A stretch of 64,000 nucleotides of DNA from Verrucomicrobiota bacterium. Its GTDB lineage: Bacteria > Verrucomicrobiota > Verrucomicrobiia > Limisphaerales > UBA9464. Location of the stretch: NCBI GenBank assembly GCA_017309115.1, contig JAFLEF010000024.1:1-64000 (forward strand). The letters run 5' to 3'. Numbering within the stretch: position 1 is the stretch's first letter; each line of letters opens with the position of its first letter. Below the pieces are notes generated by a model. The model did not search any database. It was not told the DNA's origin and saw nothing but the letters and a program-made list of their open reading frames with translations. Positions 45,512-60,817 of the stretch are shown piece by piece. Both the position numbers and the translations under genes were made by a program.

Positions 45512-46810
45512 TCAGTTCGCGGCATCCAGGATCCGGAAATGGCTCGTGGTCCCATTCAACGGCAGGGTGGTGGACGCGTTGGTGACCACGTCCACGGTGG
45601 ACCATTCGCCCACCAACAGATTGGTCGTGATTTGAACCGCGAACGGCGGGGTTCCTCCCGCCCAACTCAGATTCAGCGAGCCGCCCTGAACCGAGGCATT
45701 GAGGACCGGGGCGGTGGGCGTGGGGAAAAGGTACCGGGTGGCATGGTGCAGGTTTTGGTAGAACCAGTTGTCCGAGGTGATGGGCAGGATGCGGACTCCG
45801 GGCGGTGGAATGTTGGCCCCGGTTCCAATCCCGTTGCCCAGGTCAAACACGGCCGGGGTGTTGTCATGACTGCTGAGGATCAACGGGAAGGGCGCCGCTG
45901 CCCCATTGGTCTGAGTTCCGTACTGACCCAGCCAGATCACCACGTGAGAGATGTTCGGCCCGCGGTTGGGCTCCGCATTGATATAGAGGAGATCCCCGGG
46001 TTGAAGCTGGGCGAACAACGAGTCCAACGAACCCGGGGCATTGATGGCGCCCGTGCTGGCGTTGGGACCGTTGAAGTACTGACCTTCAATCATCGTACCC
46101 CACCGGGAGATGCCCCAGCCTCCGTCCGAGGCAGGAACATCTTCCTCGCCTTGGGTGCCGATACCGGTGGGCAGCTGTAGACCTAGGGCAACATTGTAAA
46201 CGAGCGCGGCAAAGTTGCTGCAGTCGATTCCTTCGGTCCCCAAACCGGCGGATTGTTGGTAGGGATTCGCGATTTTCCCCTGACCCGTGGTGGTGTTGAG
46301 TTCCGCCTCCTGGCTGACCACCGACCACTTCCAATAGTTGGGCGCCGTGGTGGGAGCGGAGACAAAGCCATTGGCGTAGGGGTTCCACACCGGATGATGG
46401 TGGTGCTGATACGGCACGCCGATGAACTGACTGGCCACCGCGAGAAGGCGCTGCTGTTGATAAGTCAGTTCATCCATTCCCGCCGGAGCCGGGGCGATGT
46501 CGCCGGCGTTGAAGACCGTCCCACCGTTGGGAAGGGTATGGGCCGGGTTGGCCACCGCGAACAACTGCGGAATCACCGGCCCCCAGCTGTCATGGCGAAA
46601 CGCCGGGCTGTACCAGTCAGCGAAGGCCGGCGAGGACGAATACGTGGTCAGGGCAGTCACGCGCGTGGCGAGATCGGGGGCGGAAGAAACCTCGGAGGAC
46701 ACCGAGATCTGGAACGGGGAGACGTAGGATTGGCCCAGCGCCCCAACGAACAGGGTGGACGTTAGGGCCGCCGTGAGAACGCGACGAGGCAACGGACGGA
46801 TCGAGATCAT
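45512..46810 (-). CDS. Secreted NlpC/P60-like protein with C-terminal Ig-like segment
   Basis: A 432-residue protein. ATG 46810 gives a normal signal peptide (MISIRPLPRRVLTAALTS, cleavage near ALGQS). The middle domain has the NlpC/P60 signature: the nucleophile Cys in GTEGIDCSNFAALVYN (about 197) and the His in NISHVVIWLGQ (about 287), with YQHHHHPVW earlier. The last 80 residues (VLNASVQGGSLNLSWAGGTPP, then WSTVDVVTNAS) are a short beta-sandwich tail common at the end of secreted Verrucomicrobial proteins. Likely a cell-wall peptidase or amidase; the substrate is inferred from family only. No partner gene is adjacent. Confidence 0.8.
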   Translation of the reverse strand: MISIRPLPRRVLTAALTSTLFVGALGQSYVSPFQISVSSEVSSAPDLATRVTALTTYSSSPAFADWYSPAFRHDSWGPVIPQLFAVANPAHTLPNGGTVFNAGDIAPAPAGMDELTYQQQRLLAVASQFIGVPYQHHHHPVWNPYANGFVSAPTTAPNYWKWSVVSQEAELNTTTGQGKIANPYQQSAGLGTEGIDCSNFAALVYNVALGLQLPTGIGTQGEEDVPASDGGWGISRWGTMIEGQYFNGPNASTGAINAPGSLDSLFAQLQPGDLLYINAEPNRGPNISHVVIWLGQYGTQTNGAAAPFPLILSSHDNTPAVFDLGNGIGTGANIPPPGVRILPITSDNWFYQNLHHATRYLFPTPTAPVLNASVQGGSLNLSWAGGTPPFAVQITTNLLVGEWSTVDVVTNASTTLPLNGTTSHFRILDAAN

Positions 46811-47138
46811 GAACGTGTGCGAAGGTTGATGACGTTCCACCGAAGTCAGCGAGTCACAGGCTCGGGGCACGCTGGAACGCGGTTTGTTTGGGCGCCCCCA
46901 AATTCCCCGGTTGTCGCCCGGCTGTCCAGAAATGCCCGCCTGGAATGACAGGTAATCCATAGCAGGTAATTACCTGGCACTCTCTTGGGTTCGCACACTT
47001 CTGGAGCAGCCGGGCGCTCCGCCGCCTAAAGGCGGGACTCCGAACCCCCAACGCGCTCAGGGAACCCGCGAAGAATGACAAGGAATCCATAGCCGACTTT
47101 TTCTGTGCGGTTCCGGGCCGATCGGGCATTTACGGGTG
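46811..47138. other. Intergenic region with palindrome and direct repeats
   Basis: Divergent genes flank it. It holds a perfect palindrome CAGGTAATTACCTG (46963-46976), an imperfect direct repeat of about 21 bases with the shared end AATCCATAGC (46943-46963 and 47073-47093), and a CCGCCTAAAGGCGG hairpin near 47020-47034 within a GC-rich segment. No gene is supported. Confidence 0.6.
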
Positions 47139-48710
47139 ATGGTGACCGTCCGAGCCGATCCCGTGGATGACGCCGAACTGCTCTCGCGCTATGCGGTGAG
47201 CCGTTCGGAAGAGGCGTTCGCCGAGTTGGTGCGGCGTCACTTGGACCTGGTCCACTCGGCCGCTCTCCGCCAGGCGGGAGGCAATGCCGCGGCCGCCGCT
47301 GACATCGCTCAAATGGTTTTCATCGAACTGGCCCGGCAGGCGGGGACCCTAAGCCGGCATCCCGCCTTGATCGGCTGGCTCTATACAACCACCCACCGAC
47401 TCGCCGCGCGTTACCTCCGGACGGAAAGCCGAAGAAGACGACGCGAAGAAGAAGCCCAGCACAGGCAGCAACTTCAGCATTCGGCGGAACCCGTGGCCGA
47501 TTGGGGCCAACTCGCCCCGGTCCTGGATGCCGCCCTGAATGAACTGGGCGAATCCGATCGGCTCGCGTTGCTGTGGCGTCATTTCGAACGCCGGCCGTTC
47601 TCGGAAGTGGGTGCCCGATTGGGCCTAAATGAACATGCGGCGCGAATGCGGGTGGATCGGGCCTTGGATAAACTGCGAGGTCGCTTGGCGAAACGGGGAA
47701 TTCACTCCACCTCCGCCGCGCTGACCGTGGCGCTTAGCGGTCCCGTGGTCGTCGCTTCTCCTCCTCAGCTCGCCGCGTCGATTACCCTCGCCGCAGTCGC
47801 CGCCACGCCCCTGGCCCTCAGCACCTTTGGATTTCTCACCGTAATGTCTTCTACTCCGCTCAAGCTTGCCGCCACGGCGCTGGTCTGTGGTGTCGTCGCT
47901 ACTCTGCTCGTGGTCCGTCAGGAATCGGCCCACCGCCAACGGGAGGCGGATCTGACGCGCCAGCTGAACCAAGCGCGGGCGGACCTTCAGTCCGTTGAGG
48001 AAGGCTTGCGCCAATCCGAACAGGAACGCCTTCGCCAGGCCGCCTCCACGGAGGAACTGCTGCGATTGCGGAGGGATGTGGCAGCGCTTCGTCGAGCTGC
48101 GGGTTCCCCCGGGAGAGCAACGGAAACGAACGCCGTTGCTCTTCCCGCTTCCGCGAGCCGGATTTCCTCGACCAAGTTCGCGATGACCATTCCTGTGACC
48201 ATACCTGCCGGTTCCACCTTGCTGACCGACAAATGGACCACCCGCGACGGAAAGGTCGCCTTCGCCCTCGTGACGCCCACTTCGATTGGGACTACCGAAG
48301 CACCGCAGGTCAGCATAATGGCGCGGGTGTTTGAGTGTACCGAAGAGCGGGTCCAAGAGTTGAGTAAGGCGTTGGGCGGGTCTCATTTCGTCAGCGAGGA
48401 ACAGAGGCGGGAACGGGCTTTGGCGGACGGCGTACCTTATCGAAGCCGCACTCAATCCGCGGGATTGTTCACCGAAGACCAACTGAAAACCTTTCTCGCG
48501 CATCTAGAGTCCGCCGAGGGAGTGGATCAGTTGATGGCTCCCGGCGTTACGACTGCGAGCGGCCGGCAAGCTCAGGTTGGGATGCTGAGCGATTCTCCGG
48601 ATGATCCGGTGAACGGCCTGATGTTAAACTTCGTTCCCACCCTCACCGAACAGGGCGACGTGGAGCTCCTCATGAACGTGGACCGAGAGGGGGATCGCAG
48701 CGACCCGTAG
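47139..48710 (+). CDS. ECF sigma factor fused to membrane, coiled-coil and secretin-like regions
   Basis: A 523-residue protein; ATG 47139 (GTG just before). Residues 1-185 are an ECF sigma factor: region 2 from about 18-85 (SEEAFAELVRRHLDLVHSAAL, then DIAQMVFIELARQ) and region 4 from about 130-180 (LGESDRLALLWRHFERRPFSEV). A hydrophobic stretch follows at about 190-265, with two likely spans, then a Glu/Gln-rich coiled coil at about 268-325. The tail of about 190 residues contains APGVTTASGRQAQVGM and LMLNFVPTLTEQGDVELLMN, reminiscent of the secretin beta domain pattern. Membrane attachment would keep the sigma domain inactive until release; that mechanism is inferred. Confidence 0.8.
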   Translation: MVTVRADPVDDAELLSRYAVSRSEEAFAELVRRHLDLVHSAALRQAGGNAAAAADIAQMVFIELARQAGTLSRHPALIGWLYTTTHRLAARYLRTESRRRRREEEAQHRQQLQHSAEPVADWGQLAPVLDAALNELGESDRLALLWRHFERRPFSEVGARLGLNEHAARMRVDRALDKLRGRLAKRGIHSTSAALTVALSGPVVVASPPQLAASITLAAVAATPLALSTFGFLTVMSSTPLKLAATALVCGVVATLLVVRQESAHRQREADLTRQLNQARADLQSVEEGLRQSEQERLRQAASTEELLRLRRDVAALRRAAGSPGRATETNAVALPASASRISSTKFAMTIPVTIPAGSTLLTDKWTTRDGKVAFALVTPTSIGTTEAPQVSIMARVFECTEERVQELSKALGGSHFVSEEQRRERALADGVPYRSRTQSAGLFTEDQLKTFLAHLESAEGVDQLMAPGVTTASGRQAQVGMLSDSPDDPVNGLMLNFVPTLTEQGDVELLMNVDREGDRSDP

Positions 48711-50675: not shown

Positions 50676-50883
50676 GGTGACGTTCTTGGCTGCGGCTGGA
50701 TCGTTTAATCCGACGCGTCGCCAGCAGGTGTCCGAATCGGGGAGGTCGGTGACAAAGATTCCGCTTTAAACACCGAGAATCCCTCACGAACCGTCGGTGA
50801 TCTTGCTGATCATCCGGGTTCCCTTGAAAAATCCTGTCACCGCTGCGGTCATTACTGGCACAGGTTCCAAAAGGATGACACGC

Positions 50884-52536
50884 ATGGGCGATACGCTGAC
50901 CTCGCTTGAATTCATCACGGATGCCGAACTCGTCACCGCTTGCCGGCGTGGCGACCGCGAGGCCTTCGCCCAGATCGTCGAGCGCTATCAGCGCCTGCTC
51001 TGCTCGCTGGCGTATTCGGCCACGGGGAGTCTGGGCGAAAGCGAAGACGTGGCGCAGGACGCCTTCGTTGATGCCTGGCGGCAGATGCACACCCTGCGTG
51101 AACCGGAAAAGCTGCGCCCTTGGTTGTGTGGTATTCTGCGCTTCAAGCTCGGGCGGCGGCACCGCTCGGCGCAGCAGGAACCGTTACGACAAGCGGAGCC
51201 CCTCGAGGCGGCCGACGACATGCCGTCGGACGACGTGCCCGCTGTGGAGCTGACGATGAACCGGGAGGAGGAAGCGATCCTGTGGCAGGCTTTGGAAGGC
51301 GTGCCCGAGATTTACCGGGAACCGCTGGTGCTGTATTACCGCGAGCATCGTTCCGTGGAACATGTGGCCGCCGCACTCGACCTCACGGAAGACGCGGTTA
51401 AGCAACGTCTCGCACGCGGCCGAAGAATTTTGCAGGAACGAGTTCTGTCGTTTGTGGAAACCGCTCTTTCGCGGAGCACTCCCGGTCGGGCGTTCACGCT
51501 CGGGGTAATCGCGGCCCTGCCGGAATGGGTGTTACCGGCCAAAGCCGCCGGGTTGGGGGCAGCCATGGCCAATGGCAGCGTCCTGGCCAAGACAACGAGC
51601 CTCGCGGCGATACTGGCCTCCGGCTCGGGCGTGGTTTCAGCGGTGCTGGCCTTGCGGGCGAATCTGGATCAGGCGCGGACCCCGCGGGAGCGCCGTGCGG
51701 TGGTCAAGATTACCGCGGCCGTGTTCTTCGGCGCCTGGGCCCTGCTGACCGGCCTGTACGTGCTGCGGGCGGCGGCGTTTCGTTGGCCGGATGCCGCTTT
51801 AGTGCTGGCCGCGATCACGCAGGCCTTTGTGTTGGCGTTTATCATCGGTCTGCCGGTGGCGTTGCTACGAGTTATGCGCCGGATGCGCCGTTTGCGTTCG
51901 GCCGAGCGACGACGGCATCCCGAATTGTTTGGCGATCCGCGGGATCAGGTGGGCTCCGCTGCGGGGGAGTATCGCAGCCGCTGGCAACTGCTGGGCGTGC
52001 CGCTTGTGCACATCCGGTTCTCGTCACCCGATGATGGCGAGCGACCGGTCTTCGGCTGGATTGCCGGCGGAGATCGCGCCTACGGACTCCTGTTGGCATG
52101 GGGAGGTTATGCGGTCGCACCGTTCAGCTTAGGTGCCGTCGCGGTGGGCTTCTTCGCCCTGGGATCAGTCAGTTTCGGAGTGATTTCGGTCGGTACGGCG
52201 GGGGTCGGTTGGCTTGCCATCGGCTGCATGGCTGTGGGAGTGAGAGCCTATGCGTGGCTGTCCGCGCTGGGCTGGCAGACCGCGGCGGGTGGTGGCTTCT
52301 CCATCGCCCGGACTGCCGCGGAAGGGCCGGTGGCGTTCGCGTCCCACGCCAACGACGCCGTTGCCCGGCAGATGCTCGCCGCACCCGAGGGCGACCCCGG
52401 TCAGCTAACCTTCGTGATCATCATTTCCCTGGCGTCACTCATCCCCATCGCCCTTTACGCCCGGGCGGTGCGGCAGCGCCTGGGCCGACAATCCGCGCCG
52501 GAGGAGAGCGCCCCGGGATCATCGCCGGGCCGATGA
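50884..52536 (+). CDS. ECF sigma factor fused to a multi-span membrane domain with glycine pentads
   Basis: A 550-residue protein. ATG 50884 has AAAGGA about nine bases upstream. Residues 1-185 form an ECF sigma factor: region 2 (DREAFAQIVERYQRLLCSLAY, then EDVAQDAFVDAWRQ) and region 4 (VPEIYREPLVLYYREHRSVE, then LTEDAVKQRLARGRRIL). Hydrophobic spans lie near 230-255, 275-297 and 305-328. A polar segment follows, then eight pentads of the form A-x-G-x-x in about residues 410-450 (ALGSV, SFGVI, SVGTA and so on), and a last span near 515-535. The membrane part has no similarity I recognise to anti-sigma domains. Direct fusion makes this a one-protein membrane-bound sigma device. Confidence 0.8.
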   Translation: MGDTLTSLEFITDAELVTACRRGDREAFAQIVERYQRLLCSLAYSATGSLGESEDVAQDAFVDAWRQMHTLREPEKLRPWLCGILRFKLGRRHRSAQQEPLRQAEPLEAADDMPSDDVPAVELTMNREEEAILWQALEGVPEIYREPLVLYYREHRSVEHVAAALDLTEDAVKQRLARGRRILQERVLSFVETALSRSTPGRAFTLGVIAALPEWVLPAKAAGLGAAMANGSVLAKTTSLAAILASGSGVVSAVLALRANLDQARTPRERRAVVKITAAVFFGAWALLTGLYVLRAAAFRWPDAALVLAAITQAFVLAFIIGLPVALLRVMRRMRRLRSAERRRHPELFGDPRDQVGSAAGEYRSRWQLLGVPLVHIRFSSPDDGERPVFGWIAGGDRAYGLLLAWGGYAVAPFSLGAVAVGFFALGSVSFGVISVGTAGVGWLAIGCMAVGVRAYAWLSALGWQTAAGGGFSIARTAAEGPVAFASHANDAVARQMLAAPEGDPGQLTFVIIISLASLIPIALYARAVRQRLGRQSAPEESAPGSSPGR

Positions 52537-52964: not shown

Positions 52965-55304
52965 TCAACGTCCGCTGAGTTGCTGAGCTCGGCGGACCAG
53001 GTCGATGAACTCGGAGCGGTAGCCCTCGCGATCGGGTCCCAGTCCGGCTTCCGCCAGGCGGGAGACCTTGTCCCAGGTCAGATCGCCCTTGTGCGGCGAG
53101 TTCCGCAGCAGCATGCCGTAGCCAGCAACCGCAGTGGCGAACTTGAAATCGGCACTGGCCTGATTGAATTCCCGGTCCGTGTCCTTCACGGGAAGTTCCA
53201 ACAGCTTGCTTTGATCACCATCCGGAGCCTTGTAGCGCAGCCGGAGCAGGAACAGCTCGTCGGCATGGGGCGCCTTTTCCCGGGCTTCCGAGGCGGGTGG
53301 CTGGACCTGATAGCGCAGGGGATCCACTCCCGCGAGACTCGGCGAGGCCGGCTCAATTTCGTACAACACCGTGACTTGGTGTCCGGCGCCGACGTCGCCG
53401 GCGTCCTTCTGATCGTCGTTGAAGTCGCGATCGCGGAGCGCGCGATTCTCGTAGCCCAGGAGCCGATAGGATTTCACCCGAGTGGGATTGAACTCGACCT
53501 GGACCTTCACGTCCTTGGCCACGGTGACCAGCGTGCCTTCGAGTTGTTCGCCCAGGACCTTGCGGGCTTCGGTGAAGGAATCGACATAGGCGTAGTTGCC
53601 GTTCCCCTTGTCGGCGAGCAGTTCCATGGTGGAATCCTTGAGATTGCCGAGACCATATCCGAGAACGCTAAGGAACACGCCCGACTTGGCTTTTTCCTCG
53701 ATGAGCTTTTGCAGTTGGGCGGGATCGCTGATCCCGATGTTGAAGTCACCGTCGGTGCACAGGATCACACGGTTCACCCATTCGCGGTTGAAACGGTTGG
53801 TGGCCAATCGATAGGCGTCCACGATTCCGGCGGCTCCAGCGGTGCCGCTGCCGGCGCGGAGCGCTTCGATGGTGTTCTGGATCTGGGTGCGACCGTCGGC
53901 GGTGACGCGGGTGGGTTCCAGCGCAATGCGGGATTCCCCGGCGTAGGTCACGATGCCCACAGAATCCTTCTCGGTAAGACGGTCGAGCAGGAGCCGGAGC
54001 GAACGCTTCACCAGGGGCAACTTGTTCTCGGGTTCCATCGAGCCGCTGACATCGAGCAGGAAGATCAGGTTGGCCGGCGGTCGTTCCTGGCGATCGGTTT
54101 GGGGAGTCTGCAGGCCGATGCGAATCAGTTTGTTTCCTTCCTTCCACGGGGAGTCGGCGATTTCGATCGCGGTGGCGAAGGGTTCGCCGCGGCGCGGTGC
54201 GGGATAGTCGTAGCGGAAGTAGTTGATCAATTCCTCCACGCGAACGGCATCGGGAGGCGGCAGGCTGCCGTCGCGCAGGAAGCGGCGGACATTGGCGTAA
54301 CTGGCGGTGTCCACATCCAGGCCGAAGGTGGAGAGCCGTGCGGCCAGGACTTCCTTGAAGGGGTTGTCTTGAATGGCGCTGTAGCTTTCGGTGCCGGACT
54401 CGGCGTAGCGCCAGGTCGGAGCGTCGGCCAAGCGCGCCAGCTGTTCCGCCTCCACCAGCTTTACGTCCTGACCCAAGGCGAGTTCCCCGGCTTTGCCAGC
54501 TGCTGCGGAAGCCGAGAGGGTTCGGCCCAGGTTGAGCTGATTCTGCTGGGGAATCAGGCTGTAGCGCCGCGCTAGGAGCGGATCCATCCGATAGAAATTT
54601 TCGGTCCCGTTGGCTGCGACGGTGGCGTTGTCGACGGCGTTGAGTGAGGGAATCGCCGACAACGATTCAGACTGACGTTGCGCCAGTTCACCGTTGTCGT
54701 TCCGCGTGATTGATCCCAGGGGTGTCGGACCAGCCGACTGGGAATTCAGGGCTAGATCCGTAACACCACGTTCCGCCTTGTCTTTTCCGAATTGCAGGCC
54801 GACCTGCGGTTTTGGCGTGGCCGTAATGCCTCTGAATTCGGACTCCTCGCGGATGACTTCAGTCGGAACGGGCTTTAACGCCAAGCGATCCACTTCGGGC
54901 GGGGGAGTCAGGGACTGCTTCCGACTGAGAACCGGCTGAGGAAGGGACAACAACGCGAGTACCAGAGCGGCGAGACCGGCGGTGGCCCAGATCAACTGCT
55001 GCCGCCAAAGTCGGAGCAGATCGCCGAAGGTCTGCCGTTGGGGTTCCGCTCGGGAAGGCTTGGGTTGGGAAACCGCTTCGGGGGTGGAACGGAGGAGGGT
55101 GGTTCGTTGCGCTTCAGAGAGGGCGACAGCGGGTTCCGCGGCGAACTCGCGGGCGAGGAGATCGCTGGTGTGCCGCAGCGCCTCCATCTCGGTAAGGAGT
55201 TCGGGCGATTGATTCAGGGCGGCCTCGACTTCGGCGCGTTCGGCTGGGCTGAGTTCGTCGAGTAGATACGCGGTGAGTTCGGGGGAATCGGGGGAAAGCT
55301 TCAT
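52965..55304 (-). CDS. Membrane VWA-domain protein with anti-sigma-like N-terminus
   Basis: A 779-residue protein. Residues 1-60 resemble the helical N-terminus of anti-sigma factors (AYLLDELSPAERAEVEAAL) without zinc ligands. A single span at about 104-122 leads to a large periplasmic part. There a YfbK-type N-terminal domain (about 285-380) is followed by a VWA domain with the metal-site motif FLLDVSGSMEPENK near 412-425 and by a DUF3520-like C-terminus (VTVLYEIEP, then LFLLRLRYKAPDG). It lies 19 bases after an ECF sigma gene on the same strand. The two are likely a sigma factor and its membrane partner, which may act as anti-sigma factor and sense an extracytoplasmic ligand. Confidence 0.85.
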   Translation of the reverse strand: MKLSPDSPELTAYLLDELSPAERAEVEAALNQSPELLTEMEALRHTSDLLAREFAAEPAVALSEAQRTTLLRSTPEAVSQPKPSRAEPQRQTFGDLLRLWRQQLIWATAGLAALVLALLSLPQPVLSRKQSLTPPPEVDRLALKPVPTEVIREESEFRGITATPKPQVGLQFGKDKAERGVTDLALNSQSAGPTPLGSITRNDNGELAQRQSESLSAIPSLNAVDNATVAANGTENFYRMDPLLARRYSLIPQQNQLNLGRTLSASAAAGKAGELALGQDVKLVEAEQLARLADAPTWRYAESGTESYSAIQDNPFKEVLAARLSTFGLDVDTASYANVRRFLRDGSLPPPDAVRVEELINYFRYDYPAPRRGEPFATAIEIADSPWKEGNKLIRIGLQTPQTDRQERPPANLIFLLDVSGSMEPENKLPLVKRSLRLLLDRLTEKDSVGIVTYAGESRIALEPTRVTADGRTQIQNTIEALRAGSGTAGAAGIVDAYRLATNRFNREWVNRVILCTDGDFNIGISDPAQLQKLIEEKAKSGVFLSVLGYGLGNLKDSTMELLADKGNGNYAYVDSFTEARKVLGEQLEGTLVTVAKDVKVQVEFNPTRVKSYRLLGYENRALRDRDFNDDQKDAGDVGAGHQVTVLYEIEPASPSLAGVDPLRYQVQPPASEAREKAPHADELFLLRLRYKAPDGDQSKLLELPVKDTDREFNQASADFKFATAVAGYGMLLRNSPHKGDLTWDKVSRLAEAGLGPDREGYRSEFIDLVRRAQQLSGR

Positions 55305-55323
55305 GCGATGACGGGAAGGGGGT

Positions 55324-55881
55324 TCAGAGCGGATGGGTGACAGGGCGGGGTTGTTCCAGTTTCTCGAGTCGGCCGCGCAGGGTCTTCAGCGCGGTGTGGA
55401 GCAGGAATCCGACATTGCCCACACTGAGCGAGGTGACGGCGGCGATTTCCTGGTAACTGAGGTGGTGTTGGAATTTGAGTCGGACGACTTCGCGTTGATT
55501 CGCGGGGAGTCCGGTGAGGAGGGCTTCCACCTGGCCGGCCGTGTCCCTCGAGGCGGCAGTTTCCGCCGGAGACGGCTCCGGAGCGGGTCGGTGGTCCAGT
55601 TCAAGGTCTGTGAGCGGAGTCATTCGACGATCCTTTCGCAGCACGTCGAGAGCCCGATTGCGGCCGACGGTGAACAGCCACTGGGCCAGATGATCCTCCA
55701 CTGCGCCCGGGGGTTGCTGGTAGAGGCGCAGGAAGGTGTCCTGCACCACATCCCGGGCGGAATCGAGGTCACCGGTAAGACTCAGCGCGTAACGAACCAA
55801 CGGGGCTTCGTAACGTTCGAGACTTTCCCGGAGGACTTCATCCCGACTGCGGGTGTCTCTGGCCGATTGTTCAGACTCCAT
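55324..55881 (-). CDS. ECF sigma factor, VWA-linked
   Basis: A 185-residue RNA polymerase sigma factor. ATG 55881 gives MESEQSARDTRSRDEVLRESLERYEAPLVRYALSLTGD. Region 2 (YALSLTGDLDSARDVVQDTFLRLYQQ) and region 4 (LPANQREVVRLKFQHHLSYQEIAAVTSLSVGNVGFLLHTALKTL) are complete. The downstream gene encodes a membrane VWA protein with an anti-sigma-like N-terminus, 19 bases away, so the pair is probably one transcript and one regulatory unit. The frame continues 59 codons further upstream to 56058, but those residues look non-coding. Confidence 0.92.
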   Translation of the reverse strand: MESEQSARDTRSRDEVLRESLERYEAPLVRYALSLTGDLDSARDVVQDTFLRLYQQPPGAVEDHLAQWLFTVGRNRALDVLRKDRRMTPLTDLELDHRPAPEPSPAETAASRDTAGQVEALLTGLPANQREVVRLKFQHHLSYQEIAAVTSLSVGNVGFLLHTALKTLRGRLEKLEQPRPVTHPL

Positions 55882-56309
55882 GCCGTGCTGTCGGGATAAC
55901 GCGGAGCCGGGGGGATTATTAGAGGAAAGTTTCGCGAACTCGGACTGAGGCTGGCTTCGGCGCGAAGAACCGCGGGGATTGATCAAATGCAAACATATTG
56001 CATTGACGAAGTCGCCGGATTTTCTCACTGTAGTCACCGTCAAGTGTACGGCGAACATCCCATGGAGGCGTTCTGGAGTCCCCGCGAGTGGGCGGGGTTC
56101 TGGGTTGCGTTAGTGGGATGGGAGCGGTGCCGGTCGGGATAAGTCTTTTCCCAGCGGAGCGCTCGTGATGGAGGCGTCTCTGCTCGGGAGTGAACGGTGT
56201 AACGGTTGAAGCCGGGTCCGGATGGATCGCCGCGGCCCGGCTTCTTCACACCCACCTGCGGGTGGGTGGCTCTCTGGTTCGAAGTCAGTTGATAAAATCC
56301 CCTTTTGCC
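55882..56309. other. Divergent intergenic region, sigma and GTPase genes
   Basis: Contains the palindrome TGCAA-N5-TTGCA at 55988-56002 and otherwise GC-rich DNA. Promoters for both directions are expected here but none is clear by eye. Confidence 0.5.
55988..56002. promoter_or_regulatory. TGCAA-N5-TTGCA palindrome
   Basis: TGCAA, five bases (ACATA), TTGCA. The same arms and spacing occur at 59611-59625. It lies 107 bases before the sigma start and about 310 before the GTPase start. Candidate operator, protein unknown. Confidence 0.35.
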
Positions 56310-60094: not shown

Positions 60095-60817
60095 ATGAAA
60101 TCCTTCCCGGCATCCGGCCGGAACCCCAATCGGGGCTTCACTCTGATCGAATTGCTCGTGGTGATTGCGATTATCGCCATCCTCGCGGGCTTGTTGCTGC
60201 CTGCTCTGGCTTCGGCGAAGTCGCGCGCGAACCGGACCGCTTGCACTTCGAATCTGCATCAGTTGGGTCTGGGAATTCAGATGTATGCCGACGACAACCG
60301 CGGATACTTCCCCGAAACGACCCACGAGACCGGTGAGACCAACCGTTCCTGGATCTTCACCATGCGTCCGTACCTTGGTAATACGGACCGAATTCGCATC
60401 TGCCCTTCGGATCCGTGGCGTCAGGCGCGGCTGACCAACAACGCCAGCAGTTATATCCCCAACGAATACGTCGTCGTGGATGCCCGGTCCGGCTTCGGTC
60501 AGGTCGAAGAATCCTTCCGCAACCTGAATGCGCTGAAGAATCCTGTGGAAACCATCACGACCTTCGAGGTCACCGACAATCCCGAGAAGATCAGCACCTC
60601 GTTTGACCACACCCATTCCCGGAACTGGTTCAAGGGTTGGAACGCGGTGCTGGAAGACATTCAGCCCGATCGCCATCGCACCGGTTCGCCCAGCCTCGAC
60701 CGCACCCGGGGCACGGCCAATTACTTGTACGCCTGTGGTCATGTCCTGCCCGTTGCCGCGAAGACCATGAAAGACCGCGTGGACCGCGGCGAAAACATCG
60801 CGAGACCGCCCCCTTGA
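60095..60817 (+). CDS. Type II secretion-like pseudopilin (prepilin N-terminus)
   Basis: A 240-residue protein. ATG 60095. The N-terminal class III signal [19 protein letters not shown], with the conserved Glu at position +5 after the Gly, and a hydrophobic helix that forms the pilin stalk are obvious. The rest is the DUF1559/H-x9-DG type globular domain common in Verrucomicrobia and Planctomycetes; the final segment has [13 protein letters not shown] where relatives usually have YADGHV. Such one-gene pseudopilins are numerous in these phyla and their roles are unknown. It may be exported by a pilin-like system encoded elsewhere. It lies in the metal-linked stretch but has no direct tie. Confidence 0.87.

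Follow-up and report, generated by a model that had tools for sequence, protein, structure and literature searches.

A putative membrane-tethered ECF sigma factor with a permuted secretin-like tail from a Verrucomicrobiota genome

ECF sigma factors with membrane-anchored C-terminal extensions are known, examples being IutY (ECF243), SCO4117 (ECF52), ECF48 and ECF53 (PMC8999054). The sigma part of IutY is freed by Prc and RseP, and the same text treats proteolytic release as shown for IutY and expected for SCO4117, ECF48 and ECF53 (PMC8999054). Here we describe a gene in a window of 64,000 nucleotides (the whole stretch of DNA analysed, from contig JAFLEF010000024.1 of a Verrucomicrobiota bacterium) whose product resembles these proteins in joining an ECF sigma factor, a membrane span and an extracytoplasmic part, the last of these predicted here, in a single chain, with the predicted span lying C-terminal to sigma4 as in the IutY/ECF48/ECF52/ECF53 type. 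In proteins of that type an anti-sigma part is fused to the sigma factor (in ECF48, ECF52 and ECF53 a zinc finger) and the outer domains are of other kinds, that of SCO4117 being carbohydrate-binding; a secretin-like tail is described there for none of them (PMC8999054).

Architecture and neighbourhood of the window gene

Sigma-70 regions 2 and 4 were recognised in the window protein and no other sigma-70 region was, i.e. the arrangement of an ECF factor, so that the ECF sigma domain of the original prediction is borne out; over its full length, Pfam and NCBIfam reported the sigma domains only (Table 1). Pfam found no anti-sigma domain in it, and the juxtamembrane segment contains no cysteine. 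The predicted membrane-spanning stretch was recovered as one strong span separating the sigma part from the tail, and the predicted coiled coil as a long charged helix that probably forms one; the structure model gives a single helix over residues 241-321, and the alignments reveal within the long helix an LLRLR.(D/E)V motif common to relatives. The same architecture is seen in the orthologues L059 (genome G041), L072 (G050, its N-terminus lost at a contig end), L163 (G012) and L170 (G048). Ahead of the span, the juxtamembrane pattern is alike across the family irrespective of tail type (by-eye alignment of the window protein, five relatives and 19 paralogues from its own genome), whilst the structure model is of low confidence at this segment, which is possibly a hold-back element.

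Table 1. Features of the window gene and its product
Feature	Residues	Window position	Strand	Basis
Whole gene: ECF sigma part, predicted span, helix and permuted tail related to secretins	524 aa	47136..48710	+	
Sigma-70 region 2	31-100	47226..47435	+	
Sigma-70 region 4	133-181	47532..47678	+	
Juxtamembrane segment, pattern RG(I/V).STA.AL...AP..LA...	187-243	47694..47864	+	Alignment by eye
Predicted membrane span	244-262	47865..47921	+	Hydropathy and biological hydrophobicity scale
Long charged helix	263-321	47922..48098	+	Structure model and alignments
Tail part A: hairpin homologous to the C-terminal end of the secretin domain	351-385	48186..48290	+	hhalign; InvG 459-474
Tail part B: homologous to secretins from the first strand through the strands past the gate, where it stops	390-518	48303..48689	+	hhalign; InvG 298-431
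Core secretin motif, FTEDQLKTFL...GVDQLMAPGVTTASGRQAQVGML	442-484	48459..48587	+	Residues 442-481 53% identical to the genome's PilQ-like secretin; hhalign P 3.8e-9

The gene neighbourhood offered no hint of a partner: across 25 stretches, the window shared no neighbour gene in any of the pairs listed (60 of 62). The idea that the gene is elsewhere split, with a separate sigma gene beside a tail lacking one, was rejected, as 20 scanned loci yielded 15 with a sigma-less tail frame (that of L127 cut by a contig end) and an adjacent sigma gene in one, L119, where the sigma gene itself bears another tail; at L121 a sigma gene lies about 2 kb off. Upstream of the window's sigma gene, and divergently transcribed, is an NlpC/P60 protein (45512-46960, minus strand). 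Downstream, at 50797-52536 (plus strand), an ECF sigma domain is followed by a polytopic glycine-rich membrane domain with five to seven hydrophobic segments; a second such fusion lies at L024 (G000:C101), two copies being seen in the genome. A third ECF sigma gene (55324-56058) adjoins a YfbK-type VWA protein, the pair occupying 52965-56058 (minus strand), and a weak zf-HC2 match at the start of the VWA protein may mark a fused anti-sigma part.

A sigma-membrane chassis with exchangeable tails

In the window's own genome 22 sequences match the sigma part at E<=1e-15, one of them a 152-aa fragment, and matches occur in 41 of the 51 genomes of the taxonomic family and in seven of 39 sampled genomes of the class, the window's genome included. 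In the class sample 32 of 33 matches lie within open frames of at least 393 aa, and there the sigma part therefore nearly always has an extension; some shorter frames, of 254-354 aa, are among the matches listed in the taxonomic-family search. At G000:C34:47525-48069 (minus strand) a sigma fragment in a 152-aa frame adjoins a separate frame resembling a pseudopilin-like tail, and looks like a broken family member.

These comparisons show computationally a Verrucomicrobia family in which C-terminal domains are exchanged on one sigma-membrane chassis, among them secretin-like, pseudopilin-like and carboxypeptidase-regulatory-like ones as well as FKBP and TPR. CarboxypepD_reg repeats exceeded the cut-off in all three of the genome's paralogues scanned for them (L037, L038 and L047), and further tails in the same genome are secretin-like in normal order (L036), permuted secretin-like (L034) and pseudopilin-like (L033), the remainder being classed by eye. 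According to Pfam, the chassis of L222 ends with FKBP_N and FKBP_C and that of L235 with TPR repeats. HEAT repeats, a by-eye label for three of the genome's paralogues, were upheld in L041 alone, and there below the cut-off, with none in L040 or L052. A profile scan of 79 sigma ORFs, mostly picked for closeness to the window protein and including two cut neighbours at stretch ends, labelled 11 tails as permuted-secretin, 21 as pseudopilin-like and 47 as other, where the 11 include L036, truly of normal order, and L034 was missed.

The exchange is clearest between two species of one genus, whose members L168 (G035) and L169 (G032) have frames that align over 496 residues, as far as the helix motif, with 96.0% identity, a comparison that includes an in-frame stretch before the sigma domain. 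Their tails, pseudopilin-like in L168 and permuted secretin-like in L169, are unrelated, agreeing at 16.4% over 67 residues. L166 (G019) is 94.4% identical to L169 and has a pseudopilin-like tail as in L168. Mapped on a 26-row tree of the sigma part, the permuted tail requires four changes, two of them forced by well-supported branches; the window protein clusters with L059 and L072 (98/97), both with the same kind of tail. The proposal that all the closest sigma relatives share one tail was rejected, ten loci giving three permuted secretin tails, six pseudopilin-like and one other. Near-identical chassis with secretin-like versus pseudopilin-like ends would provide matched pairs for probing what the tails sense.

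Kinship of the second tail type is based on hhalign comparison with the genome's own pseudopilins: seven tails matched 14 of their globular parts with P 7e-10 over 32 columns, plus a collinear second motif, and none of 300 shuffles reached the score (maximum 24.1 versus 64.8; cross-controls 11.4 and 10.0). Pfam gave no convincing match for the pseudopilin-like tails, and a PDB sequence search with them returned no pilin.

Secretin ancestry and order of the tail

The tail had been predicted to carry secretin-type sequence, and profile comparisons uphold this more strongly than was claimed, finding homology against the stated alternative of a tail unrelated to secretins. Through residues 442-481, at 53% identity, the window protein matches a PilQ-like secretin encoded in its own genome (C39, L031; PF00263 E 4.8e-31); ten tails matched 17 bona fide secretins with hhalign P 3.8e-9 over 43 columns, and the core motif is the best-conserved part of the tail, with 49-53% identity to real secretins. 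Against a secretin profile the window tail scored 34.0 bits, and against one built from 16 short secretin-like domains 59.3; these values were reached by none of the 1682 and 1857 shuffles, respectively, that scored at all out of 2000 made (maxima 8.0 and 8.4). Searched against PDB sequences at E<=10, the tail profile retrieved 11 distinct sequences, ten of them secretins (the virion export protein and BfpB included), the best being InvG at 6.7e-5. PF00263 had no match above the Pfam cut-off in the window protein, and matched six of ten tail relatives at E<=1 (best 3.4e-4). Judged by its profile score, which is far above chance, the tail is secretin-related.

Structure prediction of the tail, suggested at the outset as a check, gave a divided answer. 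A Foldseek search with the tail model returned no PDB match at E<=0.001; on structural re-alignment of the Foldseek candidates, secretins took ranks 2-20, 22 and 23, with an unrelated viral protein ahead of them. The register of this re-alignment (model 1-164 against InvG 363-520) differs from that of the sequence match (InvG 298-431 plus 459-474), and because a sequential aligner is unable to follow a permutation we count the result as partial support.

Within the tail, the hairpin that belongs at the end of a secretin comes first, followed by the usual first strand, the helix and the core motif, and in relatives the leading hairpin, VPAGxSLLTGGWTT..RRALLLVTPT, resembles the secretin-domain end DGQTVVLGG..LLIFITPT. 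When 21 tails were compared with 17 short secretin-like domains in normal order (template of 195 positions), the second half of the tail aligned with template positions 1-119 (hhalign P 1.4e-21) and the first half with 142-193 (P 9.2e-7), the latter scoring 35.9 against a column-shuffle maximum of 13.8 (none of 300 reaching it) and 12.8 for the reversed profile. On a self-duplicated template the tail aligns continuously through the junction, for a score of 162.9 instead of 126.8; by best-domain bits, duplicating the profile raises the score of 19 of the 21 tails, and the junction is crossed in 18 of the 21 alignments, with zero gain for L060 and L138 and a flat score for the normal-order paralogue L036. 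The PDB search gave the same swapped order, positions 43-154 of the tail profile corresponding to InvG 298-431 and positions 10-25 to InvG 459-474, this second piece being short and weak (5.1 bits). Computation thus shows, at the level of sequence, a circularly permuted secretin core.

We consider it unlikely that the permutation is an artefact, with secretin descent confined to the second half and the leading hairpin an unrelated short beta element. Such a reading can point to the weak match of the hairpin to the 17 bona fide secretins taken alone (hhalign P 0.3), to the two tails unimproved by the duplicated profile, to L034, which by itself matches neither secretin-like profile (the tail profile finds it at 7-156 of 161, E 2.2e-7), and to the differing structural register; against it stand the significant match of the first half, its clean shuffle control, the continuous alignment over the junction and the swapped InvG order. 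In the permuted core, the motif passes to the next strands within about 20 residues, and the helix and sigma part precede the tail, i.e. there is no gate region and there are no N-domains; a pore role is therefore unlikely. A core of this kind would be useful for separating the pore-making from the docking-only parts of the secretin fold.

Membrane side, proposed mechanism and known counterparts

The tail is probably periplasmic, judging from the company its relatives keep. In tail relatives without a sigma part (such as L061, L068, L056, L088 and L119) a membrane anchor forms the N-terminus, and in one, L089, the start is signal-peptide-like. In a second ORF set the tail profile gave 33 matches, with HExxH ahead of a normal-order secretin-like stretch in 15; Pfam recognised M56 in all five that were scanned and Secretin over the cut-off in four (L096, L114, L143 and L150), not in L139. 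The latter, from the window's own genome (G000:C16, L139:3568-6153:-), has M56 over the cut-off and a C-terminal secretin-like domain in normal order. The C-terminal end of BlaR1 lies outside, and the pairing of FKBP_N with FKBP_C is typical of periplasmic isomerases. The periplasmic side is thus favoured by the stand-alone anchored tails and the M56-secretin and FKBP contexts. By eye, the charges on either side of the span do not clearly follow the positive-inside rule expected with an outside tail, and a rival consequently stays in play, in which two hydrophobic stretches (roughly 210-234 and 244-262) enter the membrane as a hairpin and the tail is cytoplasmic, touching the sigma part or RNA polymerase directly. 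The first of these stretches, the weaker, is present in the window protein and several relatives, and basic residues trail the second; nevertheless, the weaker stretch scores clearly poorer in the window protein, stand-alone tails have a single N-terminal span, and the M56 and FKBP contexts point to the outside, and we regard the hairpin as improbable.

We favour, at a probability of roughly 0.6, a reading in which a single-component ECF sigma factor is tethered to the membrane, senses through a periplasmic domain of secretin origin and is probably released by proteolysis. The sigma2-sigma4 part would be cytoplasmic, the single span would act as anchor and the long helix would hold the secretin-derived domain in the periplasm, where the permuted core may serve as a sensor or docking domain, not a pore. 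We infer that tethering would keep the sigma part off RNA polymerase, perhaps aided by the juxtamembrane segment, and that engagement of the tail by a periplasmic partner or stress would free it. By analogy with described anchored factors, release probably proceeds by regulated intramembrane proteolysis; the window's genome has an M50 peptidase, which lends weak support since all 14 control genomes have one likewise.

As to what engages the tail, the genome encodes three secretins over the Pfam cut-off (C61, C57 and C39) and has 107 prepilin-type N-methylation matches (one in the window at 60119-60199, plus strand), so possible partners exist, and sensing of secretins or export machines is a plausible putative role. 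The pseudopilin-like alternative tail speaks indirectly for some connection with export or pilus machinery. As partner we tentatively favour a secretin or some other component of a type II secretion or type IV pilus system, though with the odds against it. A shade less probable is the broader idea that the sigma family reads the state of type II secretion or type IV pili through copied machine parts (permuted secretin core or pseudopilin-like domain) used as exchangeable periplasmic baits, whose docking, or its loss, would free the sigma factor. If right, bacteria reuse pieces of export and pilus machines as the sensing end of a transcription factor, in one chain with sigma, and a secretin core that is permuted and makes no pore would count as a new type of domain. 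Weightier, with not quite an even chance, is the reading that the tail binds some ligand or protein in the periplasm as a generic domain, descended from secretins and with no remaining tie to export machines. The FKBP, TPR and carboxypeptidase-regulatory-like sibling tails show a chassis whose use is not restricted to export machines, and they speak for a more general sensor family; the preponderance of tails labelled other and the divergence of the tail (23-32% identity between the window tail and orthologous tails) point the same way, although the core secretin motif is the part best kept and near-identical chassis bear the pseudopilin-like alternative. For the original prediction as a whole, of a regulator sensing export pores or the outer compartment directly, secretin kinship, an intervening predicted span and a tail probably outside the cytoplasm, judging from its relatives (anchored stand-alone tails and M56 proteins), find support, and direct sensing of export pores is a possibility; the large family with exchangeable tails, the permutation and the lack of gate and N-domains were overlooked.

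Membrane-anchored ECF factors are a known kind, and the permuted secretin sensor was not found in print: the literature titles and abstract openings listed, a coverage that does not extend to key ECF classification papers, contained no report of a sigma-secretin architecture, of a permuted secretin sensor or of its swap with a pseudopilin-like tail. Like secretins (PF00263: GspD, InvG, PilQ), the tail contains regions homologous to the two ends of the core, and unlike them it is permuted, falls below the Pfam cut-off, lacks the gate region and N-domains and is fused to a sigma factor. To our knowledge, Psp proteins are unrelated to the window protein and carry neither a secretin-like domain nor an ECF factor. 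Psp proteins bind mislocalised secretins at the Yersinia inner membrane, and the Psp response, with inner-membrane secretin binders that turn on genes, provides a functional precedent for secretin sensing (PMC5596341). The M56 (BlaR1) proteins of Verrucomicrobia share with the window protein a secretin-like C-terminal domain on a one-component membrane signalling protein, and differ from it in having a peptidase in place of the sigma factor and the secretin domain in normal order.
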